The position numbers were made by a program, and so were the translations under genes. Positions 17,101 to 62,438 of a stretch of DNA of 64,000 nt are shown piece by piece. Below the pieces are notes generated by a model. It saw only the letters and a program-made list of their open reading frames with translations. It was not told the DNA's origin and did not search any database. This stretch comes from Panopea generosa (taxonomy: Eukaryota > Mollusca > Bivalvia > Adapedonta > Hiatellidae). How positions within the stretch are numbered: position 1 is the stretch's first letter; every line of letters starts with the position of its first letter. The stretch lies in assembly GCA_029582155.1 (NCBI GenBank), contig CM055905.1, positions 4,466,062 to 4,530,061 on the forward strand, in the 5' to 3' direction.

Positions 17101-20100
17101 GGATTTAATAAATTATTTACATTTTAAAAAAAAAAATCCCATACTAATGCAAAATAACTATATTGCAGCAATGCTATTACGACCGTTTCCACTGCGCTGT
17201 AGAAGATGTGACCGCGCTAGAAGCGAGAAGGACTGTGAAGGTTGGGTGGACTGCTCGGATGATGAGGTCTCCGTTTTCACTTTACAGTTGCATATATAAT
17301 ATCAATCTCCTTCGCAGAGTTAATGTTCCTTACACTCATTCACCTCTGCAAAAGGCTTAGTATCCTGAGTTTTGATAAAACTTAATAATTACAGTATATG
17401 CAGTTGTAAGCATATTGTTAAAACCAGACAATAAAACTAGAAACAAACCATCACTATTTTACATTAGAACAAACACAACAAAGCAGCTTGTACACAAATA
17501 AATGATGAACTGTTACTTGAAAGTCACGTGAAGCTGAAAGTAGTCCGGAGCCAAGGGCAGAGGTGAATGTAATGAGTCGAATGTGTTAGAGAGTAGTATA
17601 ACCATTGCACCGCCATTGCATACCCAATGGGGAAGAGATAGTGGTGTAAATAATCCGGTATTATTCAAGAAATGAACATACAATATTAGATAACATTTGT
17701 AAATTAATAAAACAATTCAAATCATTGGGATTTAAGCTAATTAGCATGTATGAATCTAGTTCACAGGAATAGTAAGTCAGTTGATTTCTTTTATAAAGTT
17801 ATTATGCATAAAACAGTGAACAATCCAAATATGCGCATGTCTCTATTTCGAATGTATCAATGGACCAAGAACTGCAGTTATGAACAGAAAGAAAATACAT
17901 ACGTTTGGAATTTTAAACAAACAACAACAATAACTAAATCATAGTTTAACTTAGATGATACATGTACTTTTGAATATTTAAATAAATTCCACCACACCAG
18001 CCTTAGTTTTACCTTACACAGAATAAGAAACTCATATCAGCATGGAATATATTTGATCAATTGAAAAAATCTAACCTCAGACAAAAAATGACATACTTTA
18101 TTTACTTTTTCTCTCATTCGGTTGCCTGTTTAGTTAAGGTAATTATTACTTCTACTATAATATACTTTAGCTGTCTTCTTATTTTAGATATTTATTTTCT
18201 CTCCCATTGTAAAGCTGCCCATTTATGTTGATTTTTTTCTCTCCTATTTCACTGTGACGTATTTTAGCTGCCCGTATACTTAAGGTTATTATTTTCTCTC
18301 CTAAATTCACTACGACGTATTTAGCTGCCCACATATTTTAGGTGATTATTTTCTCTCCTATTTCGCTCTGACATATTTTAGCTGCCCATATATTTTAGGT
18401 AATTATTTTCTCTCCTATTTCACTCTGACGTATATAAGCTGCCCATATATTTTAGGTGATTATTTTCTCTCTTATTTCACTCTGACAAATTTTAGCTGCC
18501 CATATATTTTAGATAATTATTTTCTCTACTATTTCACTCGGATGTAATTAAGCTGCCCATATATTTTAGGTAATTGTTTTCACTCCTATTTCACTCTGAC
18601 GTATTTTAGCTGCCCATATATTTTAGGTAATTATTTTCTCTCCTATTTCACTCGGACGTATTTTAGCTGCCCGTATATTTTAGGTAATTATTTTCTCTCC
18701 TATTTCACTCGGACGTATTTTAGCTGCCCGTATATTTTAGGTAATTATTTTCTCTCCTATTTCACTCGGATGTATTTTAGCTGCCCATATATTTTAGGTA
18801 ATTATTTTCTCTCCTTTTTCAGTAAGAGGTAATTTAGCTGCCCTTATATTTTAGGCAATTATTTTCTCTTCTATTTCACTCTGACATATTCTAGATGCCT
18901 TTTTATTTTTAGGTTTGCTTCATGGATGAAATTATTACGCCCCAATTAACGAAACTGTATGAATCTGGATGCCGTGCAAGAGATGTAAGTTTGTTTAGAA
19001 ATTAAAGTTTAAACATATATTAAAACAGCAAAATGGTTATTTAAGAACTTCATTAAAACATTGAAATATGACGACAAATTGGCTGGACTATAATGTAGTG
19101 GATAGAGCGTAGGCTGCACACGTCAGAGGTTGCAGGTTCGATCTCCAACTCGACCGATGTCTGTAACAAAACAGCACTTAGCACTGGTTCTAAGAAGCGG
19201 ACTCAAGAGCGCTTCATTTAAGCTCGGAATTTCATTGCAATCGATCTCAAAATAACAAGCATAAACTTAGTTGATTTTAAAAAACATCGACCAATTCTGG
19301 CAGTACCACCTGTTAAAATATTCAAATGTATGGATACAGCATATCTCAACCAAAGGTCGATGCAATTCATCCGCTCGTTAAATACACATGCTAGAATGTC
19401 TCAGATCAACGTAATGGTTTGGAAAAAAATATAGAAAAAAAGGTGTAGGGTACGGAGGTGGACGGGGTATCCAAAAAGGGTATGTAAACAATCTAAAGTA
19501 TTCCAGTGGTCGCTGTTCAAGTCCGCGTGTTGGAGTATTTTTTTAAGATCGCGGGCAACTCAACTTGGCAAAGATACGTACCTGATGTTAGCAGTCGTAA
19601 TTTATTTTTCTGACGTTTATTATAAACTATTTCCGTGTTATAACGTTTACACCTATCTGAATACCCAGCGTCTTAACAGGTACCCACCGTTTGTTAGAAT
19701 AAATACGTCTTAAAGTAAAAAAACAACAACATGTATTTGAATGATGATATATGTTTACTGAGTTTGAAGCGAGAATGTCGACTCGTGACACCACTACAAC
19801 AGTCATGGTATACTCGTATCAAACAAGCACACACAACTTTATAGAAGGGGATCAATATCCGTTAACATTGGGTTTAAAAAAGTGGCAGGGTTCCTGTCGC
19901 ATACACATGGTATGCTACATCACCCAGTCACAGTATACTGTCACCGGATACACCAGACCTAGAACCTTCTAACTGTTAAGCGCTGAGCGAGGTATGCTAC
20001 ATCACCCTGTCACAGTATACTGTCACCGGATACACCAGACGTAGAACCTTCTAACTGTTAAGCGCTGAGCGAGGTATACTACATCACCCAGTCACAGTAT

Positions 20101-23100: not shown

Positions 23101-26100
23101 CTTCTGCAACCATCATGTTTATTACTGGTTCTACCCAGGTAGACTTCGAGCGTGATTTGCCCAAGCTGTAACACTAAGTCGATGTCAAAAATATATAAAT
23201 AGATATATACTGAGCCAAATTTCTTATTGGTGACCCACATCTTGTCAGCATTTGTCAAAACAAGAAATAGCAAACATAACACCTATAAATATATCGTGTA
23301 CAAATATTCAATGTTATTATTGTATAAGCAATTTATATACAAATAACATAATAAATGAACAAGCTACATCACTATAGAGAGCGCTACCCTCAGTTCGAAA
23401 AGTCCCACTGTTTACATTGACTTTTACAGGGTGAATATGATATCATGCCATCTCTTACAACACAATTAGGAAACACACGAACCAATAAAAGGTTTGTCCC
23501 TGAGACTCGTTTGGGGTTTTAACGCCATTTTCAACACATTTCAGGTTATATATGGCATATCCAGTCTTATTGGTGGAGGAAGACCTCAGTCTGAGTAGAA
23601 CCATCATCTTTCCGCAAGTAACTTGATACTTTCTAACATGAAGTTTTTTAAACGAGCGGGACTCGAACCTACGACCTTAGCGGTGAGAGGTAAGTGATCT
23701 TGAGACGGTGCCTTAGAACACTCGGCCACGGAGACCCCTCCGAGACTCGTTAGATGATATTGTATTATCCAATAATTAGATATGTTTTGTCATTAATTTT
23801 CTAAAAATGAGTTTTCTATGGAATTTGAATGGTAATTTCAAATTATTGGGACTTTTAGTGTTTATTCATCTGGCATTATGAACATTTTATGTAAATTATA
23901 CATACAACAACGAAGTTGTATAGGATTAGGGTGAGTAACTCCAGAAACAAATATACGCGTGGATCCGGCTACGAATAGGAACAGAGCACAACATATTTTT
24001 TTTTCAGACTTGTACATAAATACATTGTCATTATAACATATTTACAACTCCATAACTCACAATAAACGTAAAAATAATACAAGAAATACATTTAATCCCA
24101 CTTCTTCAAGAAGAAAAAAAAGAAGAATAAGAATAAGAAGAAGAGGATGAAGACATTTATCAAACATTTAAATGTTTATCATCCTTTCATTGCCAAATGT
24201 ATATTTAAATTTCACATTAAACATTTAAAATGTTATTTCTTGATATACAGAGCAAATCCGATTAAAATATAATTATCATTTGATTTAAGTAATTCAATAA
24301 GCGTGTACATGGAGGTCTTTGAAAAATAATAATAAAACAAATCATCGTAGCAAGAACTCCACCTCGGTTTAGTTACAACATAAACAATATCTCTCGTTTC
24401 TTGGAACATGGTTTCTTGTATAACGACCAGTTTGAATTCTGAGAGTATGGGTAGATTACTTAATTCTAGTAACAAACAAGTATTACATGATTAATTGTGC
24501 AGGAGTGTAATAAACCCATGACATCTCTTTTATATATCATTTCCGAGTAATCCTTCGGTGTTTTTTCCGTATAACTCGGCTCTCGTACGTAATATGCCGA
24601 ACTTCCCCGGACGGAAACAAATATGCAATTTTTTTTTCGTTCCTTACAGACATGAGTAGACTGATATGATATATGTTAAATAAATGGTAATACACATACT
24701 ATTACATGTGATAAATGGTAATACATGTACTATTACATGTGATAAATGATAATACATGTACTATTACATGTGATAAATGGTAATACATATACTATTACAT
24801 GTGATAAATGGTAATACATATACTATTACATGTGATAAATGGTAATACATGTACTATTACATGTGATAAATGATAATACATGTACTATTACATGTGATAA
24901 ATGGTAATACATATACTATTACATGTGATAAATGGTAATACATGTACTATTACATGTGATAAATGGTAATACATGTACTATTACATGTGATAAATGATAA
25001 TACATGTACTATTACATGTGATAAATGATAATACATGTACTATTACATGTGATAAATGGTAATACATGTACTATTACATGTGATAAATGGTAATACATTT
25101 ACTATTACATGTGATAAATGATAATACATGTACTATTACATGTGATAAATGGTAATACATATACTATTATATGTGATAAATGATAAAACATATACTATTA
25201 CATGTGATAAATGGTAATACAATAAAAGTTGGATAAAACTATATAACGCTCGGTATAATATAGTTTTTTTAAATATATATGTTAACTTTTTTTTGTACGA
25301 GGAAAGCGAACTAGAAATTTTCCGTTCTGTTTGACGTCTTGTTACAATTATGAGTCACTCTATTTCGTTTACTTATTCTTTGTTACAGGCATGCTCTCAA
25401 GCAGGCAAAAGGCAGGCTTTACCGGAAATTATTGCTTGCAGTAAGTGCTGCAATACACGGGACTATTGCAACGAAGAGCTGTGTGGAATACAAAGAGGTA
25501 TGTAGAGCGTGTGGTCCAGTGGTAGAGCATCGAACCCATGATCGGAGGTCCGTGGGTTCGATCCTCCACCACGGCAATGTGCGGTGTCCGTGAACAAGAC
25601 ACCTTTTCCGCATATGCTTAGTACTATATAGTTCTGTCCGGGAAGACTTCGAGCATAATTTGTCTAAGTTGTAATTATTTATTTCACAACTGAAGTAAAA
25701 TAATTAAGTTTAAACTAGAATGTTGGCGTTAGATTCAAAGATACATGTTTATGTTACATAAATGCAGGCCACTGGTACACGAAAATGTACAAAACATGAT
25801 TCAAGTGAGTGAAAATGTTTAATCTGTTAGTTTTTACATAATTTAGCAGAATACATTTATTATTAGTATATAACATTATCGTCTGTAGATTTTGCAAACG
25901 GTGTTCTTAATCTAAAAGCATGATGCAGGTATTTAGCAGCATTCATAACTGTACTGAGTAAAACAAAATGTATCTTTATGTGGATGGATTATCCAGTTGC
26001 CATTAAAATGTATTAAAAGACCTGAATCATATGCAGGACATTGAAGAAAAGAGGTGATATCCGTCGTCGACTATAGATACATTTCTCATTTTACATATTG

Positions 26101-35100: not shown

Positions 35101-38100
35101 GGTATTCTCTATCTGACCTGGTACATTTTAGAATATCAGGCACTAAGATGACATTGGTATTCTCTATCTGACCCGGTACATTTTAGAATATCAGGCACTA
35201 AGATGACATTGGTATTCTCTATCTGACCCGGTACATTTTAGAATATCAGGCACTAAGATGACATTGGTATTCTCTATCTGACCTGGTACATTTTAGAATA
35301 TCAGGCACTAAGATGACATTGGTATTCTCTATATTTATTTATTTATTTATTTAGTTTAAACTTATTTATTTTACTTCCATTGTGAAACAAGTTCTTATAA
35401 CTTAAGCAAATCACGCTCGAAGTCTTTCTGGTTAGAACCAGTATTAAGCATATGCGGAAAAGTGTCTTTCTCAAAGACACCACACATAGACGTGGCGGAG
35501 GGTCGAACCCACGACCCTCAGATCATGGGTTCGGTGCTCTACCACGTGACCACGTAAGGGAATATCAGTGAGAAGTCCAGTTGCGTACATCGTCTTCGTT
35601 TTGCTGATCCTCGACCTGAGTTATGGCCCTTTTATTTTAACATACTGTCAGAGCCATTCCTTCTTAAGGTTTCGACCGATTTTTGCCAAACCTGCTAGGG
35701 AATATCAGTATGAAATCAAATTTCGCTTACAGGTTATTTACACTCATCAAAGTATACACAACGTCAGTGAATATCTTAATGTATTATAAGCCTAAACATA
35801 AACCTGAACAGCAATTATAAACAACTTGTTTTTCAGTCACTAATCAGACTATATGTAACAAACGTGATTATCCTAATGTATTATAAACTAAAAGTTAGTT
35901 ATTTACAAAAATAAACCAAAACAGCAATTATAAACAATTCTTTGTCTTTCAGGCAATAACCAAACTATATGTAACAAACGTGGTGATCCTAATGTATTAT
36001 AGGCTAAAAGCTAGTTACTTACAAAAATCAATCTAAACAGCAATTATAATTAATTTGTTGTTTTTCAGGCACTACTCAGACTGTATGCAACATACGTGTT
36101 GACCCTAATGTTTTATAAGCTAAAAGTTAGTTATTTACAAAAATAAACCTGAACAACAATTATAACTAATTTGTTGTTTTTCAGGCACTACTCAGACTGT
36201 ATGCAACATACGTGATGACCCTAATGTATTATAAGCTAAACGTTAGTAATTTACAAAAATAAATCTGAACAGCAATTATGATTAATTTGTTGCCTTTCAG
36301 GCACTAATCAAACTATATGTAACAGATGTGGCGATCCATATGGACTACATGCTACAAATCCCGTACAATTTCCGGAGGATTGTGCACACAGATCGCCCTG
36401 TAACACGGACGAAGTAAGTTATGTTATGTGTTTGAGGATTGTGCACACAGATCGCCCTTTAACGCCGATGAAGTAAGTTATGTTCTGTGTTGGGGATTGT
36501 GCACACCGATCGCCCTGTAACACGGATGAAGTAAGTTATGTTATGTGTTGGAGATTGTGCACACCGATCGCCCTGTAACACGGATGAAGTAAGTTATGTT
36601 ATGTGTTTGAGGATTGTGCACACAGATCGCCATGTAACACGGACGAAGTAAGTTATGTAATGTGTTTGAGGATTGTGCACACAGATCGCCCTTCAAGACG
36701 GACGAAGTAAGTTATGTAATGTGTTTGAGGATTGTGCACACAGATCGCCCTGTAACACGGATGAAGTAAGTTATGTTATGTGTTTGAGGATTGTGCACAC
36801 AGATCGCCCTGTAACACGGATGAAGTAAGTTATGTAATGTGTTTGCGGACTGTGCACACAGATCGCCCTATAACACGGATGAAGTAAGTTATGTTATGTG
36901 TTTGAGGACTGTGCACACATGTCGCCCTGTAACACGGATGAAGTAAGTTATGTTATGTGTTGGGGATTGTGCACACCGATCGCCCTGTAACACGGATGAA
37001 GTAAGATATGTTATGTGTTTGAGGATTGTGTACACAGATCGCCCTGTAACACGGACGAAGTAAGTTATGTAATGTGTTTGAGGATTGTGCACATCGATCG
37101 CCCTGTAACACGGACGAAGTAGGTTATGTTATGTGTTTGAAGATTGTGCACACCGATCGCCCTGTAACACGGATGAAGTAAGTTATGTTATGTGTTGAGG
37201 ATTGTGCACACAGATCGCCCTTTAACGCGGATGAAGTAAGTTATGTTATGTGTTGAGGATTGTGCACACAGATTGCCCTGTAACACGGATGAAGTAAGTT
37301 ATGTTATGTGTTTGAGGACTGTGCTCACATATCGCCCTGTAACACGGATGCAGTAAGTTATGTTATGTGTTGGGGATTGTACACACCGATCGCCCTTTAA
37401 CGCGGATGAAGTGAGTTATGTTATGTGTTGGGGATCGTGCACACCGATCGCCCTGTAACGCAGATGAAGTAAGTTATGTTATGTGTTGGGGATCGTGCAC
37501 ACCGATCGCCCTGTAACACGGATGAAGTAAGTTATGTTATGTGTTGGGGATTGTGCACACCGATGGCCCTGTAACACGGATGAAGTAAGTTATGTTATGT
37601 GTTGGGGATTGTGCACACAGATCACCCTTTAACGCGGATGAAGTAAGTTATGTTATGTGTTGGGGATCGTGCACACCAATCGCCCTGTAACACGGATGAA
37701 GTAAGTTATCTTATGTGTTGGGGATTGTGCACACAGATCGCTCTTTAACGCGGATGAAGTAAGTTATGTTATGTGTAGAAGATTGTGCACACAGATCGCC
37801 CTTTAACACGGATGAAGTAAGTTATGTTATGTGTTTAGGATTGTGCACAACGATCGCCCTGTAACACGGATGAATTAAGTTATGTTATGTGTTGGGGATT
37901 GTGCAAACAGATCGCCTTTTAACGCGGATGAAGTAAGTTATGTTATGTGTTGGGGATCGTGCACACCGATCGCCCTGTAACACGGATGAAGTAAGTTATG
38001 TTATGTGTTTGAGGACTGTGCTCACATATCGCCCTGTAACACGGATGCAGTAAGTTATGTTATGTGTTGGGGATTGTACACACCGATCGCCCTTTAACGC

Positions 38101-41100
38101 GGATGAAGTGAGTTATGTTATGTGTTGGGGATCGTGCACACCGATCGCCCTGTAACGCGGATGAAGTAAGTTATGTTATGTGTTGGGGATCGTGCACACC
38201 GATCGCCCTGTAACACGGATGAAGTAAGTTATGTTATGTGTTGGGGATTGTGCACACCGATGGCCCTGTAACACGGATGAAGTAAGTTATGTTATGTGTT
38301 GGGGATTGTGCACACAGATCACCCTTTAACGCGGATGAAGTAAGTTATGTTATGTGTTGGGGATCGTGCACACCAATCGCCCTGTAACACGGATGAAGTA
38401 AGTTATCTTATGTGTTGGGGATTGTGCACACAGATCGCTCTTTAACGCGGATGAAGTAAGTTATGTTATGTGTAGAAGATTGTGCACACAGATCGCCCTT
38501 TAACACAGATGAAGTAAGTTATGTTATGTGTTTAGGATTGTGCACAACGATCGCCCTGTAACACGGATGAATTAAGTTATGTTATGTGTTGGGGATTGTG
38601 CAAACAGATCGCCTTTTAACGCGGATGAAGTAAGTTATGTTATGTGTTGGGGATCGTGCACACCGATCGCCCTGTAACACGGATGAATAAAGTTATGTTA
38701 TGTATTGGGGAATGTGCACACCAATCGCCCTGTAACACGGATGAAGTAATTGATGTTATGTTGAGGATTGTGCACACAGATCGCCCTGTAACACGGATGA
38801 AGTAATTGATGTTATGTTGAGGATTGTGCACACAGATCGCCCTGTAACACGGATGAAGTAATTGATGTTATGTTGAGGATTGTGCACACAGATCGCCCTG
38901 TAACACGGATGAAGTAATTGATGTTATGTTGAGGATTGTGCACACAGATCGCCCTGTAACACGGATGAAGTAATTGATGTTATGTTGAGGATTGTGCACA
39001 CAGATCGCCCTGTAACACGGATGAAGTAATTTATGTTATGTGTTGGGGTTTGTGCACACAGATCGCCCTTTAACGCGGATGAAGTAAGTTATGTTATGTG
39101 TTGGGGATCGTGCACACCGATTGCCCTGTAACGCAGATAAAGTAAGTTATGTTATGTGTTGAGGATTGTGCGCACAGATCGCCCTTTAACGCGGACGAAG
39201 TAAGTTATGTTATGTGTTGGGGATCGTGCACACCGATGGCCCTTTAACGCCGATGAAGTAAGTTATGTTCTGTGTTGGGGATTGTGCACACCGATCGCCC
39301 TGTAACACGGATGAAGTAAGTTATGTTATGTGTTGGAGATTGTGCACACCGATCGCCCTGTAACACGGATGAAGTAAGTTATGTTATGTGTTGGGGATCG
39401 TGCGCACAGATCGCCCTTTAACGCAGATGAAGTAAGTTATGTTATGTGTTGGGGATCGTGCACACCGATCGCCCTGTAACACGGATGAAGTAAGTTATGT
39501 TATGTGTTGAGGATTGTGCACACAGATCGTGCTTTATTGCTGATGAAGTAAGTTATGTTATGTTATATGTTGGGGATCGTGCACACCGATGGCCCTTTAA
39601 CGCGGATGAAGTAAGTTATGTTATGTGTTGGGGATTGTTCACACCGATCACACTGTTACACGGATGAAGTAATTTATGTTATGTGTTGGGGATTGTGCAC
39701 ACAGATCGCCCTTTAACGCGGATGAAGTAAGTTATGTTATGTGTTGGGGATTTTGCACACATATCGCCCTTTAACGCGGATGAAGTAAATTATGTTATGT
39801 GTTGGTGATCGTGCACACCGATCGCCCTTTAACACGGATGAAGTAAGTTATGTTATGTGTTGGGGATCGTGCACACCGATCGCCCTGTTACACGGATAAA
39901 GTAAGTTATGTTATGTGTTGGGAATCGTGCACACTGATCGCCCTGAAACACGGATGAAGTAAGTTACGTTATGTGTTGGGGATTGTGCACACAGATCGCC
40001 ATTTAACGCGGATGAAGTAAGTTATGTTATATGTCGGGGATCGTGCACACCGATCGCCCTGTAACACGGATGAAGTAAGTTATTTGATGTGTTGAGGATT
40101 GTGCACACAGATTGCCCTTTAACGCTGATGAAGTAAGTTATGTTTTGTGTTGGGGATTGTGCACACCGATCGCCCTGTAACAAGGATGAAGTAAGTTATG
40201 TTATATGTTCAGGATTGTGCACACAGAACGCCCTTTAACGCGGATGAAGTTAGTTATGTAATATGTTGAGTATTGTGCACAACGATCGCCCTGTAACACG
40301 GATGAAGTAAGTTATGTTATGTGTTGGGGATTGTGCACATAGATCGCCCTTTAACGCGGATGAAGTAAGTTATTTTATGCGTTGGGTATCGTGCACACCG
40401 ATGGCCCTGTAACACGGATGAAGTAAGTTATTTTATGTGTTGAGGATTGTGCACACAGATCGCCCTTTAACGCGGATGAAGTAAGTTATGTTATGTGTTG
40501 AGGATTGTGCACACAGATCGCCCTTTAACGCAGATGATGTTAGTTATGTTATGTGTTGAGGATTGTGCACACATATCGCCCTGTAACACTGATGAAGTAA
40601 GTTATGGTATGTGTTTGAGGATTGTGCACACCGATCGTGCTTTAACGCGGATGAAGTAAGTTATGTTATGTGTTGGGGATTGTGCACACGGATCGCCCTT
40701 TAACACGGATGAAGTAAGTTATGTTATGTGTTCGGGATCGTGCACACCGATCGCCCTGTTACACGGATAAAGTAAGTTATGTTATGTGTTGGGAATCGTG
40801 CACACCGATCGCCCTGTAACACGGATGAAGTAAGTTACGTGATGTGTTGGGGATCGTGCACACCGATCGCCCTGTAACGCGGATGAAGTAAGTTATGTTA
40901 TGTGTTGAGGATTGTGCACACAGATTGCCCTTTAACGCGGATGAAGTAAGTTATGTTATGTGTTGGGGATCGTGCACACCGATGGCCCTTTAACGCGGAT
41001 GAAGTAAGTTTATGTCATGTGTTGGGGATTGTGCACACCGATCGCCCTGTAACACGGATGAAGTAAGTTATGTTATGTGTTGGGGATTGTGCGCACAGAT

Positions 41101-44100
41101 CGCCCTGCAACACGGATGAAGTAAGTTATGTTATGTGTTGAGGATTGTGCACACAGATCGTGCTTTAACGCGGATGAAGTAAGTTATGTTTTGTGTTGGG
41201 GATTGTGCACACAGATCGCCCTTGAACGCGGATGAAGTAAGTTATGTTATGTGTTGGGGATTGTGCACACCGATGGCCCTTTAACGCGGATGAAGTAAGT
41301 TATGTTCTGTGTTGGGGATTGTGCACACCGATCGCCCTGTAACACGGATGAAGTAAGTTATGTTATGTGTTGGGGATCGTGCGCACAGATCGCCCTTTAA
41401 CGCAGATGAAGTAAGTTATGTTATGTGTTGGGGATCGTGCACACCGATCGCCCTGCAACACGGATGAAGTAAGTTATGTTATGTGTTGAGGATTGTGCAC
41501 ACAGATCGTGCTTTAACGCGGATGAAGTAAGTTATGTTTTGTGTTGGGGATTGTGCACACAGATCGCCCTTGAACGCGGATGAAGTAAGTTATGTTATGT
41601 GTTGGGGATTGTGCACACCGATGGCCCTTTAACGCGGATGAAGTAAGTTATGTTCTGTGTTGGGGATTGTGCACACCGATCGCCCTGTAACACGGATGAA
41701 GTAAGTTATGTTATGTGTTGGGGATCGTGCGCACAGATCGCCCTTTAACGCAGATGAAGTAAGTTATGTTATGTGTTGGGGATCGTGCACACCGATCGCC
41801 CTGTAACACGGATGAAGTAAGTTATGTTATGTGTTGAGGATTGTGCACACAGATCGTGCTTTATCGCTGATGAAGTAAGTTATGTTATGTTATATGTTGG
41901 GGATCGTGCACACCGATGGCCCTTTAACGCGGATGAAGTAAGTTATGTTATGTGTTGGGGATTGTTCACACCGATCACACTGTTACACGGATGAAGTAAT
42001 TTATGTTATGTGTTGGGGATTGTGCACACAGATCGCCCTTTAACGCGGATGAAGTAAGTAATGTTATGTGTTGGGGATTTTGCACACATATCGCCCTTTA
42101 ACGCGGATGAAGTAAATTATGTTATGTGTTGGTGATCGTGCACACCGATCGCCCTTTAACACGGATGAAGTAAGTTATGTTATGTGTTGGGGATCGTGCA
42201 CACCGATCGCCCTGTTACACGGATAAAGTAAGTTATGTTATGTGTTGGGAATCGTGCACACTGATCGCCCTGAAACACGGATGAAGTAAGTTACGTTATG
42301 TGTTGGGGATTGTGCACACAGATCGCCATTTAACGCGGATGAAGTAAGTTATGTTATATGTCGGGGATCGTGCACACCGATCGCCCTGTAACACGGATGA
42401 AGTAAGTTATTTGATGTGTTGAGGATTGTGCACACAGATTGCCCTTTAACGCTGATGAAGTAAGTTATGTTTTGTGTTGGGGATTGTGCACACCGATCGC
42501 CCTGTAACAAGGATGAAGTAAGTTATGTTATATGTTCAGGATTGTGCACACAGAACGCCCTTTAACGCGGATGAAGTTAGTTATGTAATATGTTGAGTAT
42601 TGTGCACAACGATCGCCCTGTAACACGGATGAAGTAAGTTATGTTATGTGTTGGGGATTGTGCACATAGATCGCCCTTTAACGCGGATGAAGTAAGTTAT
42701 TTTATGCGTTGGGTATCGTGCACACCGATGGCCCTGTAACACGGATGAAGTAAGTTATTTTATGTGTTGAGGATTGTGCACACAGATCGCCCTTTAACGC
42801 GGATGAAGTAAGTTATGTTATGTGTTGAGGATTGTGCACACAGATCGCCCTTTAACGCAGATGATGTTAGTTATGTTATGTGTTGTGGATTGTGCACACA
42901 TATCGCCCTGTAACACGGATGAAGTAAGTTATGGTATGTGTTTGAGGATTGTGCACACCGATCGCCCTTTAACGCGGATGAAGTAAGTTATGTTATGTGT
43001 TGGGGATTGTGCACACGGATCGCCCTTTAACACGGATGAAGTAAGTTATGTTATGTGTTCGGGATCGTGCACACCGATCGCCCTGTTACACGGATAAAGT
43101 AAGTTATGTTATGTGTTGGGAATCGTGCACACCGATCGCCCTGTAACACGGATGAAGTAAGTCACGTGATGTGTTGGGGATCGTGCACACCGATCGCCCT
43201 GTAACGCGGATGAAGTAAGTTATGTTATGTGTTGAGGATTGTGCACACAGATTGCCCTTTAACGCGGATGAAGTAAGTTATGTTATGTGTTGGGGATCGT
43301 GCACACCGATGGCCCTTTAACGCGGATGAAGTAAGTTTATGTTATGTGTTGTGGATTGTGCACACCGATCGCCCTGTAACACGGATGAAGTAAGTTATAT
43401 TATGTGTTGGGGATTGTGCGCACAGATCGCTCTTTAACGCAGATGAAGTAAGTTATGTTATGTGTTGGGGATCGTGCACACCGATCGCCCTGTAACACGG
43501 ATGAAGTAAGTTATGTTATGTGTTGAGGATTGTGCACACAGATCGTGCTTTAACGCGGATGAAGTAAGTTATGTTTTGTGTTGGGGATTGTGCACACAGA
43601 TCGCCCTTGAACGCGGATGAAGTAAGTTATGTTATGTGTTGGGGATTGTGCACACATATCGCCCTTTGACGCGGATGAAGTAAGTTATGTTATGTGTTGG
43701 GGATCGTACACACCGATCGCCCTTTAACACGGATGAAGTAAGTTATGTTATGCGTTGGGGATCGTGCACACCGATCGCACTGTAACACGGATGAAGTAAG
43801 TTATGTTATGTGTTGGGGATTGTGCACAGAGATCGCCATTTAACGCGGATGAAGTAAGTTATGTTATGTGTTGGGGATCGTGCACACCGATCGCCCTGTA
43901 ACACGGATGAAATAAGTTATTTGATGTGTTGGGGATTGTGCAAACCGATCGCTCTGTAACGCGGATGAAGTAAGTTATGTTATGTGTTGAGGATTGTGCA
44001 CACAGATCGCCCTTTAACGCGGATGAAGTAATTTATGTTATGTGTTGAGGATTGTGCACAACGATCGCCGTGTATTACGGATGAAGTAAGTTATGTTATG

Positions 44101-47100
44101 TGTTGGGGATTGTGCACATAGATCGCCCTTTAACGCGGATGAAGTAAATTATTTTATGTGTTGGGTATCGTGCACACCGATCGCCCTGTAACACGGATGA
44201 AGTAAGTTATGTTATGTGTTGAGGATTGTGCACACAGATCGCCCTTTAACGCGGATGAAGTAAGTTATGTTATGTGTTGAGGATTGTGCACACAGAACGC
44301 CCTTTAACGCAGATGAAGTAAGTTATGTTATGTGTTGAGGATTGTGCACACAGATCGCCCTTTAACGCGGATGAAGTAATTTATGTTATGTGTTGAGGAT
44401 TGTGCACAACGATCGCCGTGTATTACGGATGAAGTAAGTTATGTTATGTGTTGGGGATTGTGCACATAGATCGCCCTTTAACGCGGATGAAGTAAATTAT
44501 TTCATGTGTTGGGTATCGTGCACACCGATCGCCCTGTAACACGGATGAAGTAAGTTATGTTATGTGTTGAGGATTGTGCACACAGATCGCCCTTTAACGC
44601 GGATGAAGTAAGTTATGTTATGTGTTGAGGATTGTGCACACAGAACGCCCTTTAACGCAGATGAAGTAAGTTATGTTATGTGTTGAGGATTGTGCACACC
44701 AATCGCTTTGTAACACGGATGAAGTAAGTTATGTTATGTGTTTGAGGATTGTGCACACCGATCGCCTTGTAACACGGATGAAGTAAGTTATGTTATGTTT
44801 TTGGTAATCGTTACAAATCTAAGAGCACCAACAATGAAATCACAGGAAATTTATGAAAGATGTTAAAATGTTATTCAACCATATACAGCTTCATATTTAT
44901 GGTGATAATATACTAAAGCAAATGTCAAACTATTGTAGCGGGATGAAAATATGCAATGGATAGAGTGTTGACCCCTCACACTATAAGTTGCGAGTACAAT
45001 TCCCAGCTCGTCCTGATGACCAATTCTACCAGGAAACGGAATCAAGTGTGATTAATATAAAATCTGAGATAACTTCACAATCGGGTTAAAATAAATTAAC
45101 GTAGCTGTTAACAGTGAAAGATCATTCTTAGATTTATTTGTTTGTTATTTTCCGTTGGCCTTTTAAGCCAATATATCCGCAAACTGTTCACTAAAATACC
45201 TGTCATCAATAAAGCTAAGCTCAACAGGCGGATCCAGAATTTATAGTCGGGTATTGATATCAAGTTCAGGGACGGATTTAGGATTTCAATCTAGAGTTGG
45301 CGGACTTAGGGGCGTAACACAAAATCGGAACTGGCACACATGAATTTCAGTAGACAACAGTGATTTTTAATAAACTATGGGAGATTAGGGGGGAGAGGTT
45401 GTCGTACGCTAGTTTTTTTTAAAGAGTACATCCGCCACTGGATAGTTGAATGACGTCATAATTTAGTATTAAAGCGTTAATAAACTTAATTCGGGAGATA
45501 TCTTGTTCTATGTATAGACTAGAATTTACAAGTGAATTGTCAAGACATGTATAACAGGCTATTGTACACGTAGACATAATTAAATGACATATTTCTATTG
45601 TTTGTTTTTAAATTTCAGATGTGTTACGCAAGTACACACTCGGTTGGAGAAGACGAACTCAGACATGAAACACAATGTATGAATAAAAAGGTATATGCAG
45701 TTGGGAATCGTCTACGTGTATCTAATATGTGTACATCCTTTTATCCTCCGCCACCGCTCGTAGAGCGGAGCAGGGGAATATAGAAATTGGTTGCGTCCGC
45801 CCGTCCGTGCTTCCGTGTGTCCCCTGCTGTAACATACGTGTATCTCCTTCAGTTGTGATTGTAATTTTAAATAAAATGGCACAAACGTTCACTAGGACAA
45901 GACGATGCGTCATGCGAATGACTTGGGTCTGTTCGTAAACTCAAGGTAAAGTGTTTGAACATCAAATGAATACATTGTGTAGTCATGTCCGGATCGTATC
46001 TTCTTTAATTGATATTGCATTTTTAAATAACTTCGCACAAATGTTCACTATAATAAGACGATGTGTCATGCCACTGACATGGGTATGTTCGTCAAAGGTC
46101 AAGGTCACAGCTCCGTCCGTCTGTCCACTGCTGTCCGGAACTTATCTTCCTTAGGTCTTCTTGGGTCTGTTCTTCAAAGGTCATGGTCACCTCTTATTTT
46201 ATTTCAAAATGGTCGGTTTTAAGTTCTGTTTTCACAATTCGAATCCTTTGGCATTTAGTACGGTATACTAGCGTCCTAATAATTTACTTTTTTACCGTAA
46301 ATACGGTTAATAATAATTATGAGCACTTCCGGCTATGGCCGTCAACTAGATCCTTCCGCGTTCGTTTTTAATGCTGTATTAGCAATGTTTGTATAGTCCG
46401 GTTAATATTGGGAATTTATGAACGTGAACACAATATAACAATGGCTTTCTCAAATGTCGTTTTACATGTATTTATGTACATGCTATTTGTTATCGTCTTG
46501 CTGACTTAAAACAAAGTTTAGTTACTAAGACGTGTGAAAAGACATATATTATGCACAATGATTACAGTTTGTCCCTCATTTACACAAAATTGGTAAATGA
46601 CCTTTGAAATAATGAATGAGATCGGATTGCTGAATACGGATTAGTACTTTCGCCAGTATTATGACCCAAAGTATTGACAATGGATTTTCCCTGACAATGC
46701 ATTAACATGTCTCTACTTCTAAGCAACCGTGATATTAATTTCTGCCATTTTCATTATTTTATTTAGATTTTTACACCCAGAAATTATATTAAATTACACA
46801 GCTCGCTAGCTGAAAAGTTTAAATCGGCAATAATCCCCTTACTTGTTACTTCTGTTACTTCGTCACAACAGCTTTCCAGGGTAGAATCCTTGGTCACGTG
46901 CATCATTTTTCTTACTCTTTCTCTTACATGTTTCAACATCGTACATCATTAACACAGGATTTTCTATATATATTTATTTCTTACATTGTTACAACTGTCA
47001 TTTAAACTTTAATGAATTTTATTAACACGTATGCAGTTTCTAAAACATATTTCAACACACGTCACCATTTTTGTATCAGTTCCTTCTTAAACATCAACCA

Positions 47101-53100: not shown

Positions 53101-54038
53101 GGTTTTTTGACTTGGTTTTTGAGATATTTGGTTGCATTTCAATTTAAAACATGTTTTGAATATGAATTTTACTTAGATTATATTTCAAATGAAACAAACC
53201 GTAAACATTAAACAATATTTCGACTGAGTACGCATAATTTAGTAATTGAAACTGGGAGATACACAAATGTACAAAGGGCTAGTAGTTTTTGCAGAGTATG
53301 TAATGGGGGTTGGTTGAATCATAGTGTCATTTTCTCAGATGTTGTCCCACATATAAAACAAATAAAAATAAATATATTTAACATAGTTTTTCCCAAATGT
53401 TAATAGTTTTAAAAACATAATGCCATCGAAGAATAAAAAAAAATTATTTGCAATTTGGCAACATTTATGACCGAAGCTCATAGGCTAAGGCAAGAAACTT
53501 TAAACAATTTACTTGATTGTTGATAAGATTTTAAATAATTTTGTAATACTTTTTAAATATGTTTAAATACCATGACTGCTTCAGTTTGAATATGTGATAT
53601 GAGTGTATTTGTTTGTATTTCATATCATTGTATGTCTATGGCATACTTAAATTAATTTGAATTTGTAAATGGCAATAGCCAATACGTTGCTGATATGCGA
53701 ATAAACTTGTTCTAGTTAAATTGTTGGTTTGTTTATAATACAATGTTACACCGTTGTATAAAATGTAAATCTATTTTTAGGTTTGCCAAAGTTTGATGGG
53801 CTATATACTAAATACTTCCACGGGGAGCGACACTCAGAACTCAAATTTGCCTGCAATCGTTGGTAAACGAAGTAGCGGCTCCAGTTCTATATGCGCCGTG
53901 TGCTGTGGGGACGATAAGTGCAATCGATATGCGTGCGAAACTGTCAAAAGTAACATATATTTGTCATACTTTAGTTTCTCAAAAAATCATTATGTAACTA
54001 TTGTTCTGGGTTCGATTTCACTACACATCTCAAGTTGA
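10516..54038 (+). CDS. Predicted two-domain Ly6/uPAR-like three-finger secreted protein (gene span, 8 coding exons)
   Basis: Spliced model of 258 codons: exons 10516-10525, 15084-15128, 17169-17266, 18913-18984, 25389-25497, 36301-36413, 45619-45690 and 53781-54038; all join phases agree. Residues 1-19 form a hydrophobic signal peptide. Domain 1 has cysteines at 29, 32, 41, 47, 53, 71, 77, 92, 95, 96, 102 and 107. Domain 2 has them at 118, 121, 139, 145, 151, 169, 175, 211, 214, 215, 220 and 225. The spacings C-x2-C, C-x5-C-x5-C-x17-C-x5-C and C-x2-CC are identical in both, and each domain ends with the CC...CN signature typical of Ly6/uPAR proteins. Each domain is built from three exons with the same phases (1-0, 0-0, 0-1), which implies tandem domain duplication. 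Family knowledge points to an extracellular ligand-binding or GPI-anchored protein; the ligand is unknown. The main doubts are the weak donor of exon 3 and the minimal start exon. Confidence 0.78.
10838..10895 (-). repeat. Single inverted unit of the 65-bp family
   Basis: The segment around AACTGGATCCTACTCATATA followed by AAGCTATCA is the reverse complement of the unit that forms the array at 61.5-62.4 kb (TGATAGCTTATATGAGTAGG then ATCCAGTT). Only one copy is seen here. Confidence 0.75.
11084..11113. repeat. (TA)n microsatellite
   Basis: Uninterrupted AT/TA dinucleotide run of about 30 bases. Confidence 0.9.
11428..11625 (+). mobile_element. tRNA-derived SINE (family A)
   Basis: A tRNA-like head with A-box-like GTAGTGTAATGGAAAGAGTG and B box GGTTGCGAGTTCGATCCC, then a shared tail containing CACTCAGTACTAGTTCTACC, GAGAGCGGTTCATATAGCTC and GCAATCGAGCTAAAATA. 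Copies with the same head and tail lie at about 19.1 and 44.95 kb and a tail fragment at 57.3 kb. A short CAAA-type run precedes it. Confidence 0.85.
11983..14830. mobile_element. Putative non-autonomous DNA transposon with long terminal inverted repeats
   Basis: The segment ~11985-12205 reappears inverted at ~14630-14820. Both arms carry several degenerate copies of a short subrepeat (ACGTTAAATGTCGCAA type), and translating either arm in the matching frame gives parallel peptides. The outer ends share GACGA...AAACG followed by TTAAATGTC. About 2.4 kb lies between, with no transposase-like frame, so this looks like a non-autonomous or internally replaced element. Small open frames in the arms are subrepeat artefacts. 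The superfamily is not recognised. Confidence 0.6.
13230..13445 (+). repeat. Dispersed repeat R1, copy 1
   Basis: Shares with 15280-15490 a string of blocks: CCTGATA-CTCCC, GCAGGGAATTC-ATGCCTG, CAATTCATAGCAA, TGAAGCAACTGACCAATCAA and CCCAACATTGCTA-TTAACGGACCC. It lies inside the inverted-repeat element. No coding frame. Confidence 0.7.
15084..15128 (+). CDS. Exon 2: hydrophobic core of the signal peptide
   Basis: The acceptor TTTATGTTTCAG precedes 45 bases, followed by the consensus donor GTAAGT. In the frame required by exons 1 and 3 it reads 14 mostly hydrophobic residues (SIFVILVFLISIGY) between two split codons. An in-frame ATG at 15075 lies before the AG and would give the wrong phase for exon 3. 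Cleavage is plausible after the alanine created at the exon 2/3 join. Confidence 0.65.
15280..15490 (+). repeat. Dispersed repeat R1, copy 2
   Basis: Same ordered blocks as the copy at 13230-13445, in the same orientation, about 2.05 kb away, located in the intron after exon 2. The open frame here is part of the repeat. Confidence 0.7.
15500..17068. other. Intron 2 remainder, no feature seen
   Basis: AT-rich intronic sequence with a short TA run near 16790. No gene, tRNA-like head or tandem array was recognised. Confidence 0.5.
17069..17102. repeat. (TG)n followed by poly-G
   Basis: TGTGTGTATGTGTGTG-type run passing into about 13 consecutive G, just 66 bases before exon 3. The open frame starting here is created by this run and continues into exon 3 in the correct frame only by chance. 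Confidence 0.9.
17169..17266 (+). CDS. Exon 3: domain 1, cysteines 1-4
   Basis: Acceptor CTATATTGCAG, entry phase 1, exit phase 0, 32 full codons. It contains CRRC, then DC and DC followed by SDDE. Exon 6 of domain 2 has CNRC, DC, PC then NTDE, with the same x5 spacing between the third and fourth cysteines and the exon ending four residues after the fourth. The donor is GAG|GTCTCC, poor beyond the GT. Reading on without splicing meets TAA at 17297-17299. The homology to exon 6 fixes the boundary better than the splice signal does. Confidence 0.72.
17267..18120. other. Intron 3 first part, no feature seen
   Basis: AT-rich intronic sequence. A short stretch near 17728-17760 (TTAAGCTAATTAGCATGTAT then GAATCTAGTTC) resembles one near 58590-58620, so it belongs to a dispersed repeat. 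No coding frame with support. Confidence 0.45.
18130..18912. repeat. 57-bp array ending at the exon 4 acceptor
   Basis: About 14 copies of a 57-bp unit: CTGCCCATATATTTTAGGTA, then ATTATTTTCTCTCCTATTTC, then ACTCGGACGTATTTTAG. The final, diverged unit ends ATGCCTTTTTATTTTTAG|GTTTGC, so the true acceptor of exon 4 falls at the homologous position of the unit's ATTTTAG|GT. Each unit therefore presents a pyrimidine-rich tract and AG like the genuine 3' splice site. Confidence 0.9.
18913..18984 (+). CDS. Exon 4: domain 1, cysteines 5-6
   Basis: 72 bases, 24 codons, phase 0 at both ends, between acceptor TTTTTATTTTTAG and donor GTAAGT. It begins VCFMDE and has a second cysteine 17 residues later (SGC). 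Exon 7 in domain 2 is also exactly 72 bases, with cysteines at the same two positions. The acceptor lies at the end of a 57-bp tandem array whose units resemble the acceptor region. Confidence 0.82.
19085..19265 (+). mobile_element. tRNA-derived SINE (family A)
   Basis: Head ATGTAGTGGATAGAGCGTAG and B box GGTTGCAGGTTCGATCTCC, then the family A tail (AGCACTGGTTCTAAGAAGCG, GCTTCATTTAAGCTCGGAAT, TTGCAATCGATCTCAAAATA). It lies 100 bases after exon 4 in the same orientation as the gene. Confidence 0.85.
19266..19890. other. Intron 4 segment, no feature seen
   Basis: Non-repetitive sequence between a SINE and the 82-bp array. The 73-codon open frame at 19751-19972 runs into the first repeat unit and has no recognisable domain. 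Confidence 0.4.
19900..22040. repeat. 82-bp minisatellite, about 26 copies
   Basis: Highly uniform unit of 82 bp (for example 19981 to 20063) starting CGCTGAGCGAGGTATACTAC and ending ACCTTCTAACTGTTAAG. Each unit carries the perfect 12-base palindrome ACAGTATACTGT. Copies differ at few sites (TATACT/TATGCT, CTTCTAA/CTTGTAA, ACCTAG/ACGTAG), in line with recent homogenisation. Confidence 0.97.
22284..22345 (+). mobile_element. SINE head fragment (family B)
   Basis: CCCGTGGTCCAGTGGTAGAG matches the start of the SINE at 25503, but the similarity is lost after about 35 bases. Confidence 0.5.
22346..23025. other. Intron 4 segment, no feature seen
   Basis: AT-rich non-coding sequence with no array, tRNA-like head or supported frame. 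Confidence 0.45.
23030..23215 (+). mobile_element. Diverged SINE (family B)
   Basis: B-box-like GGCCGTGGGTTCGATCTTCT followed by the family B tail: ACTGGTTCTACCCAGGTAGA, CTTCGAGCGTGATTTGCCCA, AGCTGTAA. It has the same order as 25503-25715. Confidence 0.7.
23560..23745 (-). mobile_element. tRNA-derived SINE (family C), reverse orientation
   Basis: Contains GGGACTCGAACCTACGACCT, the reverse complement of a B-box region, preceded by TTGGTGGAGGAAGACCTCAG and a tail shared in order with 47790-47930 (reverse) and 57470-57745 (forward). Confidence 0.7.
23746..24680. other. Intron 4 segment, no feature seen
   Basis: AT-rich sequence with a short AAGAAGAATAAG purine run near 24110-24150. The 80-codon minus frame at 24233-24475 has no recognisable domain. 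Confidence 0.4.
24681..25220. repeat. 31-bp minisatellite, about 17 copies
   Basis: Unit TAAATGGTAATACATGTACT then ATTACATGTGA. It has two ACATGT palindromes per unit and a main A/G plus G/A variant (TGGTAA/TGATAA, CATGTA/CATATA). It ends 168 bases before exon 5. Confidence 0.95.
25389..25497 (+). CDS. Exon 5: domain 1 C-terminal part with CC...CN signature
   Basis: 36 codons plus one base, phase 0 in and phase 1 out, between acceptor TTTGTTACAG and donor GTATGT. Cysteines are arranged C-x14-C-x2-CC-x5-C-x4-C, including CCNTRDYCNEELC, the hallmark end of Ly6/uPAR three-finger domains. It matches exon 8 except for a shorter central loop. A second perfect donor motif, GTAAGT at 25441-25446, lies inside the exon just before the CC pair. 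Its use would remove the last five cysteines apart from the one at residue 92 and change the frame. Confidence 0.85.
25503..25715 (+). mobile_element. tRNA-derived SINE (family B)
   Basis: Head GTGGTCCAGTGGTAGAGCAT and B box GGTCCGTGGGTTCGATCCTC, then a conserved body (ACACCTTTTCCGCATATGCT, AGTTCTGTCCGGGAAGACTT, CGAGCATAATTTGTCTAAGT). It begins five bases after the exon 5 donor, so it has inserted almost at the splice site. Confidence 0.85.
25716..26995. other. Intron 5 first part, no feature seen
   Basis: AT-rich intronic sequence with A-rich runs near 26600-26660. Minus-strand frames of 60-80 codons here have no supported function. Confidence 0.45.
26999..28860. repeat. AT-rich minisatellite, about 30 copies, two unit lengths
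   Basis: The core TTTAATAGATATTATATTTG, GTAATACTTTGTCAGTGAGT, ATATATATGTATG recurs about 30 times. Units before ~27480 are about 53 bp; later ones carry an added CTATTTTGGCATG block, making about 66 bp. Every unit contains TCAGTGAGTATAT, which resembles a 5' splice site. Small frames on both strands are periodic artefacts. Confidence 0.95.
28861..29130. other. Intron 5 spacer between arrays
   Basis: AT-rich, with no repeat and no coding frame. Confidence 0.5.
29132..33938. repeat. 32-bp minisatellite, about 150 copies
   Basis: Unit ACAACATTCACACGTATCTC then AGAGTGTACTGG. Variants include ATATTT for ACATTC and GGTTG for AGAGTG. The unit has no stop in any plus frame and is 32 bases long (not a multiple of 3), so open frames of up to 377 codons cycle through three registers with a 32-residue period. 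No signal peptide or known domain is present. Blocks are duplicated: the stretch starting near 30570 recurs from about 32100. Confidence 0.97.
33939..34780. other. Intron 5 segment, no feature seen
   Basis: Non-repetitive AT-rich sequence without a supported coding frame. Confidence 0.45.
34785..34885 (+). mobile_element. SINE head fragment (family C)
   Basis: TCTCACCGCTGAGGTCGTGG then GTTCGGCC resembles the B-box region of the family C copies at 57.5-57.6 kb. The tail is not clearly present. Confidence 0.5.
35045..35330. repeat. 55-bp tandem repeat, about 5 copies
   Basis: Unit AGATGACATTGGTATTCTCT, ATCTGACCTGGTACATTTTA, GAATATCAGGCACTA repeats at a 55-base spacing (35091 to 35146 and on). 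A diverged related copy is seen near 34735-34785 (CACCTGATAAAATTGATAAC, ATCAGACACTAA). Confidence 0.93.
35334..35560 (-). mobile_element. tRNA-derived SINE (family B), reverse orientation
   Basis: A TTTA-rich run is followed by the reverse complement of the 25503 SINE: AGTTTAAACTTATTTATTTT, CTCGAAGTCTTTCTGGTTAG, GCATATGCGGAAAAGTGTCT, GGGTCGAACCCACGACCCTC and GTGCTCTACCACGTGACCAC in order. Confidence 0.85.
35721..36300 (+). repeat. 116-bp array of exon 6 acceptor/5' end copies
   Basis: CAG|GC sites at 35837 (as CAG|TC), 35953, 36069 and 36185 precede the genuine exon start at 36301 at an exact 116-base step; a more diverged copy ends its CAG at 35732. After each AG the sequence matches the start of exon 6 (TNQTICN...), but the second cysteine codon TGT is CGT and an in-frame TAA or TAG follows about 15 codons in. 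AATAAA lies about 24 bases after the stop in three copies (35910, 36142, 36258). Each copy thus looks like a short pseudo-exon with its own acceptor, stop and polyadenylation hexamer. Confidence 0.9.
36301..36413 (+). CDS. Exon 6: domain 2, cysteines 1-4
   Basis: Acceptor TTGCCTTTCAG and donor GTAAGT; phase 1 in, phase 0 out, 37 full codons. It begins TNQTICNRCGDP, contains EDC and SPC, and ends NTDE. NQT is a potential N-glycosylation site. Both ends lie within tandem repeats derived from the exon: its 5' end is repeated upstream every 116 bp and its last ~40 bases with the donor are repeated downstream every 58 bp. Reading past the first donor meets TAA within the next unit, so this first donor gives the domain-completing product. 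Confidence 0.85.
36374..44803 (+). repeat. 58-bp array derived from the exon 6 3' end and donor site, about 145 copies
   Basis: The unit is GATTGTGCACACAGATCGCC, CTGTAACACGGATGAAGTAA, GTTATGTTATGTGTTGGG. The first copy is the genuine end of exon 6 (36374-36413) with its GTAAGT donor; all later copies repeat the coding end plus donor plus the first ~18 intron bases. Most units keep GTAAGT; variants include GTAATT, GTAAAT, GTGAGT and GTTAGT. Large blocks are duplicated (about 0.7 kb near 37.3 and 38.0 kb; about 2.3 kb near 39.5 and 41.9 kb). The array ends near 44803. Confidence 0.96.
44930..45115 (+). mobile_element. tRNA-derived SINE (family A)
   Basis: Head GCAATGGATAGAGTGTTGAC and B-box region AGTTGCGAGTACAATTCCCA, then a family A tail (GACCAATTCTACCAGGAAAC, CACAATCGGGTTAAAATAAA). 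More diverged than the 11.4-kb copy. Confidence 0.75.
45116..45618. other. Intron 6 end, dispersed repeat remnants
   Basis: A stretch around 45270-45430 (GGGACGGATTTAGGATTTCA onward) looks like a degraded interspersed repeat. No coding frame before exon 7. Confidence 0.35.
45619..45690 (+). CDS. Exon 7: domain 2, cysteines 5-6
   Basis: 72 bases, 24 codons, phase 0 at both ends; acceptor TTTTAAATTTCAG, donor GTATAT. It begins MCYAST and has the second cysteine 17 residues after the first (TQC). Length, phase and cysteine positions equal those of exon 4. Confidence 0.83.
45740..46370. repeat. Interspersed repeat with internal duplication
   Basis: Starts just after exon 7 with CTCGTAGAGCGGAGCAGGGG and a CCGCCCGTCCGTGCTTCCGT-type tract. 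Two related halves follow: GGCACAAACGTTCACTAGGA, CAAGACGATGCGTCATGCGA near 45877 and CGCACAAATGTTCACTATAA, TAAGACGATGTGTCATGCCA near 46035. The overlapping small frames on both strands are part of it and not supported as genes. Confidence 0.55.
46371..47789. other. Intron 7 segment, no feature seen
   Basis: AT-rich intronic sequence without a recognisable array, tRNA-like head or supported frame. Confidence 0.45.
47790..47935 (-). mobile_element. SINE remnant (family C), reverse orientation
   Basis: GTTGGAGGACAACCTTAGAA, AACTATCCTTCCACAAATAA and GGGCCTGGAACCTACGACCT occur in the same order as in 23560-23745. Confidence 0.55.
47936..49880. other. Intron 7 segment, no feature seen
   Basis: AT-rich sequence. 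The 81-codon plus frame at 48206-48451 has no domain I recognise and is not supported as a gene. The 3' end of the reverse-strand LINE may reach into its right part. Confidence 0.4.
49900..52160 (-). mobile_element. Decayed non-LTR retrotransposon (LINE), reverse strand
   Basis: Reading on the minus strand, remnants occur in the expected order. First come sequence upstream of reverse transcriptase (52116-51892) and RT N-terminal motifs (IINPIHKSSSVDPGDPLSYG, 51858-51571). Next are a WDR/KMLKAL region split by a MITE and the RT core GLRQGCQLSPLLFNLFINEL (51197-50817). Then comes a thumb-like part near 50700-50580 with VISYGA, and a C-terminal cysteine-rich segment LCPYC...FHVMLNC (50146-49919). 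The catalytic YADD-type motif region is displaced by frameshift and stops break the frame, so it is inactive. Confidence 0.85.
51225..51446. mobile_element. piggyBac-like MITE nested in the LINE
   Basis: Terminal inverted repeats CCCTTTACTTCATA (51225-51238) and TATGAAGTAAAGGG (51433-51446) are each flanked by TTAA (51221-51224 and 51447-51450). TTAA target-site duplication with CCC termini is characteristic of piggyBac elements. Inside is a perfect 33-base inverted repeat (51276-51308 and 51310-51342) around one base. Removing the element with one TTAA rejoins the LINE reverse transcriptase frame. Confidence 0.85.
52215..53520 (+). mobile_element. Decayed non-LTR retrotransposon (LINE), forward strand
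   Basis: Remnants in order: GVIIPIHKKGDLSNPPNYRG (near 52249), a degraded FVDYMKASDT block (near 52512), VVPILLYGSEVWGIHE (near 52795), KQQTPNVTVLVELGDFP (near 52900) and a cysteine-rich end (IETGRYTNVQRASSFCRVC near 53246-53300). Many stops and frameshifts. It lies head to head with the reverse-strand LINE and belongs to the same broad type. Confidence 0.8.
53781..54038 (+). CDS. Exon 8: domain 2 C-terminal part and hydrophobic tail
   Basis: Acceptor TCTATTTTTAG, phase 0 entry. The frame is open for 85 codons to TGA at 54036-54038. It starts VCQSLMG and carries ICAVCCGDDKCNRYAC, giving the same six closing cysteines as exon 5 with a longer central serine-rich loop. The last ~28 residues contain a hydrophobic stretch (YVTIVLGSISLHI) close to the C-terminus, which could be a GPI-attachment signal as in many Ly6 proteins. 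A moderate donor at 53950 (AAAA|GTAACA) could splice this tail out. Confidence 0.82.
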   Translation, partial: VCQSLMGYILNTSTGSDTQNSNLPAIVGKRSSGSSSICAVCCGDDKCNRYACETVKSNIYLSYFSFSKNHYVTIVLGSISLHISS

Positions 54039-62436: not shown

Positions 62437-62438
62437 AA

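Follow-up and report, generated by a model that had tools for sequence, protein, structure and literature searches.

Amphioxus 'mirages' were reportedly described by Canestro et al. in 2002. They are minisatellite-like duplications of intron-exon boundaries, found in Adh3 and in the globin genes BflGb6 and BflGb9; unit lengths are 10-72 bp in Adh3 and 150-160 bp in the globins, and the BflGb6 mirage has 6 and 3 units in its two haplotypes (PMC3087553). Reverse-transcription PCR (RT-PCR) suggested that regular splicing is undisturbed by these duplications (PMC3087553). In this report, we analyze a stretch of 64,000 nucleotides from the bivalve Panopea generosa (C12:4466062-4530061, hereafter the window; the genome comprises 1.474 Gb in 39 contigs), in which the 3' end of one exon of a putative Ly6-like gene is repeated, together with its splice donor, in a tandem array of 145 units.

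The array at this exon, termed A2, has the anatomical features of a mirage. As in amphioxus, the unit joins exon sequence, a splice site and adjoining intron (here 38 nucleotides (nt) of exon, GTAAGT and intron, 145 times), and the authentic boundary of the exon is situated at the array's edge, the exon here being called from sequence. Copy number varies in amphioxus and, here, among paralogues. Also shared are AG/GT signals in many units, units of comparable length, and the involvement of either the 5' or the 3' boundary, which in Panopea extends to both edges of A2, to the donor of exon B in paralogues and to the acceptor of exon B1. However, the 145 copies, spanning 8.4 kb, contrast with the 6 and 3 units of the BflGb6 haplotypes, and here both edges of one exon are affected. 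Moreover, amphioxus is a cephalochordate for which RT-PCR and haplotypes were reported, whereas the present case is known from one genome sequence. A preliminary description of the window had regarded such a minisatellite as not previously known; in fact this kind of structure has been published (PMC3087553), and what is new is the copy number and the duplication of both edges of one exon.

The amphioxus cases, at much lower copy number, are the closest that our literature search found, and two other systems are more distant. Human segmental-duplication genes carry internal tandem repeats at exon-intron boundaries, and such boundary repeats are reported to have given rise to novel introns that transcripts support (PMC2812944). 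The Panopea array likewise consists of tandem repeats at an exon-intron boundary that could alter splicing, but its unit has a donor and, by eye, no convincing acceptor, the acceptor of the intron lying outside the array. Zhuo et al. are said to have described in 2007 introns arising from tandem arrays, with donor and acceptor both inside flanking repeat copies. An intron of that type was rejected here: the acceptor of exon B2 (45619) lies 0.8 kb past the array, and a BLAST search with the region around it (45560-45760) matched nothing else in the window at an expectation value (E) of 0.01. Earthworm metallothionein, with intron minisatellites and exon 4 duplications, is another invertebrate gene family with large intronic minisatellites, although the available portions of that report do not describe its first-intron repeats as spanning an exon edge (PMC12783039).

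The array at the A2 donor

Exon A2 and the arrays at its edges are listed here in window coordinates; values above 64000 in later sections are positions beyond the window, counted on the same scale.

35794..36324, + strand: 116-bp x 4.6 array across the A2 acceptor (Tandem Repeats Finder, TRF)
36301..36413, + strand: exon A2, 113 nt, phase 1-0, called 'exon 6' in the preliminary description (acceptor score 10.5, donor score 8.6)
36376..44803, + strand: 58-bp x 145 array (TRF, anchors and unit alignment; outer bases by eye)

Read 5' to 3', the unit of the long array comprises the last 38 nt of A2, the donor GAA|GTAAGT and the first intron bases. TRF reports this array at 36377-44798 with a period of 58, 144.9 copies and 89% matches. 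An anchor search recovers 145 units, whose 144 spacings are 58 bp (120 cases), 59 bp (17), 56 bp (5) or 63 bp (2). The 38 exonic nt of the first unit (36376-36413) are themselves the 3' end of A2. The tandem array of exon end and donor noted in the preliminary description is therefore real, and the minisatellite is seeded on an exon-intron boundary, as had been proposed. On the + strand, the array holds 119 GTAAGT sites and the remainder of the window 14; for GAAGTAAGT, the corresponding counts are 112 and 0. When 144 of the 145 units were aligned (the last, partial unit was left out and the authentic donor was kept in), GT was found to be retained in 140 units and GTAAGT in 118. An array of this kind is not due to chance.

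The aligned units include 85 distinct sequences and differ pairwise by 10.8% on average. Runs of units with 0-2 differences recur at lags of 40, 12 and 6 units, and these near-identical blocks indicate that the array has undergone recent turnover. Over the 38 common nt, two positions separate A2 from the array consensus (by eye): the first base, which is A in the exon, G in 88 of the 144 units and A in 53, and a synonymous C/T difference in GAC/GAT. Divergence from the exon over these 38 nt is 3.42 nt in units 1-24, 3.96 nt in the next 24 and 4.75-5.25 nt in the four later blocks. The nearest units thus diverge least, although the correlation of divergence with distance from the exon (Spearman 0.26) comes from units that are not independent. 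In a search of the genome with a 171-base query covering the exon and first units, in which the best candidates alone were scored, 144 matches were obtained, and all of the matches listed fell at this locus; with exon A2 as query, all 26 matches at E up to 10 lay there as well.

A coding role for the array was considered and rejected. No open reading frame of at least 90 amino acids occurs on either strand of 34,256-46,077, and in the exonic part of the distinct units conservation is highest at codon position 3 (0.948, versus 0.88 and 0.896 at the other positions), so that this part shows no coding constraint.

The gene, its other arrays and its paralogues

Exons were sought by a scan combining a cysteine pattern, splice scores and phases over 264 kb. 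The scan returned B1, C1, A2, B2 and C2 in the window, as well as A and C exons of paralogues downstream, whereas A1 was located by motif. Fifteen A-type minus-strand rows within a 57-bp array at 645-9127 were dropped as chance products of the repeat. Each domain is encoded by three exons, A (phase 1-0), B (0-0) and C (0-1), and the phases of A2 are compatible with those of the preceding and following exons. The remaining features of the gene are as follows.

17168..17266, + strand: exon A1 of the first domain (weak splice scores, -0.3 and -0.8; like paralogue A exons by eye)
18231..18914, + strand: 57-bp x 12 array, its last copy ending at the B1 acceptor, TTTTTAG|GT (TRF)
18913..18984, + strand: exon B1, VCFMDEIITPQLTKLYESGCRARD, phase 0-0 (scan and splice scores)
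25389..25497, + strand: exon C1, ACSQAGKRQALPEIIACSKCCNTRDYCNEELCGIQR, phase 0-1 (scan and splice scores)
45619..45690, + strand: exon B2, MCYASTHSVGEDELRHETQCMNKK, phase 0-0 (scan and splice scores)
53781..53949, + strand: exon C2, ending SICAVCCGDDKCNRYACETVK, phase 0-1 (scan and splice scores)

The label 'exon 6' could not be verified, as the exons found upstream are A1, B1 and C1, and no signal-peptide exon at the 5' end emerged from a scan for one. A2 encodes the first part of a second three-finger-like domain (peptide GTNQTICNRCGDPYGLHATNPVQFPEDCAHRSPCNTDE, with the first codon split between C1 and A2). Judged by eye, the cysteine pattern and the CC..D.CN motif presumably fit a three-finger (uPAR/Ly6-like) domain. 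The spliced protein gave profile scores below the Pfam cut-offs for both PF00087 (E 0.033, 15.4 bits against a cut-off of 21.2, residues 1-77) and PF01064 (E 0.099, 14.1 bits against 20.9, residues 1-79), and had no match in PDB. The product thus looks three-finger/Ly6-like at a level short of profile-based family membership.

The preliminary description missed two arrays at exon edges of this gene, those at the acceptors of A2 and B1. In the former, the 116-bp unit consists of ~60 intron bases, a TTTCAG acceptor and roughly 40 exon bases. The authentic A2 acceptor lies in the last 116-bp copy and the authentic A2 donor in the first 58-bp unit, again with the exon as called from sequence. Four decoy acceptors precede the real one (35837, 35953, 36069 and 36185); each is followed by an in-frame VL*, and they score 9.0-12.3, compared with 10.5 for the A2 acceptor. 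The array at B1 is the weakest of the junction-array cases, because it takes in only about two exon bases. A BLAST search of 16 exon and array stretches against the window (E 0.01) found no further exon-derived arrays. Beyond the window, a donor-bearing 68-bp x 11 array (72684-73434) has AAGGTAAGT in its consensus unit and was set aside, since no exon was recognized at its edge. Within the C1-A2 intron, the unit of a 53/67-bp array (27014-28859) holds a donor-like TCA|GTGAGTATAT, with no exon seen beside the array; GTGAGT occurs 28 times in this intron.

Ly6-like paralogues lie in tandem on the same contig at 84736-91379, at 129064-135000 (with an in-frame TAG in the C exon) and at C12:4652264-4657569. 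On another contig, a C exon of the family occurs at C15:1340722-1340874, with no A or B exon among the matches listed there. The B exons of the paralogues, which were picked by eye rather than by the exon scan, form a series in copy number. At exon B 88676-88744, the boundary is present in five tandem copies, with a unit made of the last 20 nt of the exon and 87 bases from the GTATGT donor onward. Seven copies are present in the next paralogue (132242-132310), and exactly one in a further paralogue on the contig (L049:990-1058). The exon B peptides of the latter two are identical, and that of 88676-88744 differs in its last residue. The unexpanded junction state therefore survives beside expanded ones, and junctions of this family are duplicated without closing the exon's reading frame. 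The observations that bear on length instability are the 1, 5 and 7 copies among these paralogues and the near-identical blocks of the A2 array.

In the window, 48% of the sequence lies in tandem repeats with a period of at least 10, and the figures for the flanking 100-kb stretches are 27% on the left and 38% on the right (264 kb in all, in which 10,500 bases read N), so that minisatellites are part of the local background. The same 65-bp and 37/74-bp arrays occur at 61499-64000 and 105522-108086, ~44 kb apart, and mark a tandem duplication of the region. A 32-bp x 150 array at 29131-33937 has + strand open frames of up to 388 amino acids in several frames; a repeat of 32-bp period can stay open without being coding. 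Neighboring open frames on the - strand at 49919-52170 are, by eye, what we take to be pieces of a reverse transcriptase of the long interspersed nuclear element type.

Probable origin of the array and predicted consequences for splicing

We consider it likely that the A2 array is a very large mirage, which arose by chance duplication of a junction, grew by repeat turnover, and is tolerated as essentially neutral. A segment spanning the A2 donor would have been duplicated in tandem, after which unequal exchange or slippage would have enlarged the repeat as in any minisatellite, with many-unit blocks being duplicated as well. Whenever a junction is duplicated in tandem, one copy should remain attached to the intact exon. 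If exon definition matches an acceptor with its closest donor, normal mRNA would continue to come from the innermost sites, and the outer decoys would be removed along with the intron or would give stop-containing transcripts. The array might thus be tolerated because the exon keeps its first donor. In favor of this account are the identity of the exon end with the first unit, the near-identical block copies, the one-copy state of a paralogue, a donor core conserved only mildly better than the rest of the unit, and the absence of coding constraint.

Several points weigh against this account. Use of the first donor is deduced from general principles of splicing. The presence of 4 of 18 junctions in arrays (see below) exceeds what random seeding would give, so 'chance' may be too simple a description. 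The 9-mer GAAGTAAGT ranks 3/58 in conservation among all units and 4/58 among distinct units, on which basis a weak constraint on the donor may exist. Finally, the gene may be partly dead, because the A1 splice sites are poor and the 5' exon was not found in the scan; in that case, tolerance of the array would need no splicing argument.

Joins of A2 to B2-C2 were predicted from each of the 119 GTAAGT sites in the array. Only one, the first donor, gives a stop-free product, in agreement with the preliminary description, which had also stated that the next unit supplies a TAA. The latter statement applies to 117 sites, for which a stop lies within the extension, but not to donor 2, for which the frame is shifted and the stop comes past the extension. 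Exon definition favors the innermost acceptor-donor pair, and from this we infer use of the first donor. A contrasting possibility is that regulated use of downstream donors yields stop-containing mRNAs and lowers gene output. Such a switch would be consistent with the stop produced in A2-B2-C2 by all 118 other GTAAGT sites, and with decoy acceptors as strong as those upstream of A2. Nevertheless, a stop is the expected outcome for nearly any decoy, the conservation signal is not clear, and the preference for the innermost pair acts in the opposite direction, so we regard this proposal as improbable. The preliminary description suggested instead that the array, by recruiting many U1 small nuclear ribonucleoproteins, acts as a U1 buffer or keeps the long intron from being polyadenylated prematurely (telescripting). 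That U1 suppresses intronic poly(A) sites is established in the literature, and the retention of GT and GTAAGT in most aligned units would suit this role. However, comparison of GTAAGT with other unit positions, a check that the same description had called for, places the donor core only mildly above the median: it ranks 10 among 58 six-base windows for the 144 units and 15 for the 85 distinct units. Five array-wide polymorphic columns pull down the mean of the non-donor positions, which without them is 0.963, compared with 0.969 for the donor. The donor core is therefore mildly better conserved than the rest of the unit, and the constraint is no more than weak. In addition, U1 duplex energies at array sites are modest (-5.6 to -7.2 kcal/mol, versus -8.5 kcal/mol at the donor of exon C1). 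Poly(A) hexamers are scarce at the array, with 1 in its 8,385 bp, and abundant elsewhere: the intron preceding A2 has 15, and the 8,090-bp B2-C2 intron, which has no comparable array, has 34. We therefore rejected telescripting as the leading explanation, on the grounds of conservation, of U1 energy and of where poly(A) signals lie; a selected U1 role is not supported, and we consider it very unlikely. Over-expansion of a real but shorter array during assembly is also very unlikely. Near-identical blocks such as those at lags of 40, 12 and 6 units are places where assemblies can fail, and one draft amphioxus mirage was misassembled (PMC3087553). Even so, the 85 distinct units require a long array, whatever the exact number, and the window contains 0 N bases.

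Splice junctions as possible seeds of minisatellites

A broader explanation is that minisatellites in this genome are seeded preferentially at splice junctions, A2 being one instance of a genome-wide tendency. We take this to be possible without thinking it likely. An enrichment test was applied to 18 junctions (12 of this gene, including the 2 weak A1 sites, and 6 of one paralogue, the other paralogues being left out as recent copies), with a 5-base tolerance at array ends. Four junctions lay in arrays, where random seeding predicts 0.25-0.30 from seed length or 0.50-0.61 from edge units; the Poisson P lies between 1e-4 and 0.0035, or at 0.002-0.02 without the ascertained A2 donor. Tandem triplets of MAGGTRAGT number 5,049 genome-wide, versus 1,484 for the mirror motif, 1,562 for a permutation and 1,720 for the mirror of the permutation. 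Single MAGGTRAGT motifs outside arrays, in 156 kb, are not commoner than the mirror (4 versus 9). In the first 56.28 Mb of contig C1, the matches listed correspond to 15 MAGGTRAGT loci, 2 mirror loci and 5 permutation loci (counted by hand, with matches within 20 kb merged).

Other tests point away from such a tendency. None of the 24 junctions of 12 proteasome exons lay in arrays (12 of 29 matched exons were examined, with edges called by score and some scores low). At these 12 loci, TRF found one single-base run and, ~90 bp after an exon, one 10-bp x 3 repeat, neither of which crosses a junction. The difference between family and proteasome junctions has a Fisher P of 0.027, or 0.064 without the A2 donor; a tendency limited to array-rich genes would survive this null result. 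Tandem triplets of MAGGTATGT show no excess (2,607 versus 2,427 for the mirror), and 13 loci of this motif were counted by hand in the first 56.28 Mb of contig C1. Several MAGGTRAGT loci look by eye like one dispersed 51-bp family, and GTRAGT occurs in 6 consensus units of 58 local arrays, against 5.5 expected. Arrays of AGGTAAGT are in excess (6,775 versus 1,966), but this is partly a matter of base rate, because single AGGTAAGT motifs outside arrays are also commoner than their mirror (15 versus 5). By eye, some AGGTAAGT arrays (for example, C1:12661835-12662074 and C1:13327841-13329642, both on contig C1) look derived from a tRNA-like dispersed repeat, which is also present in the window near 23,690. 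An acceptor-like motif in 5 of the 58 local arrays (0.58 expected) was discounted, since three of the five represent one 51-bp family and five patterns were tried. Favored seeding at junctions is thus a suggestion made by some tests and not by others. The specific proposal that junctions of fast-evolving genes in this genome are preferred birthplaces of minisatellites, with exons ending up between growing fields of decoy acceptors and donors, is one that we put forward as doubtful.

The observation that led to this work was right and indeed understated, although the function suggested for the array is not supported and structures of this kind were known. The locus is a natural experiment in which one donor is chosen among more than 100 that are nearly identical and decoy acceptors flank the exon on its opposite side, and the paralogues with 1, 5 and 7 copies of another junction provide a graded series. 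Its size, its double-edged exon and this series recommend it as a system in which to test splice-site choice. If junctions are indeed favored seeds, A2 would be an extreme case, in which choice of the innermost pair could be tested against 4 upstream and ~140 downstream decoys.

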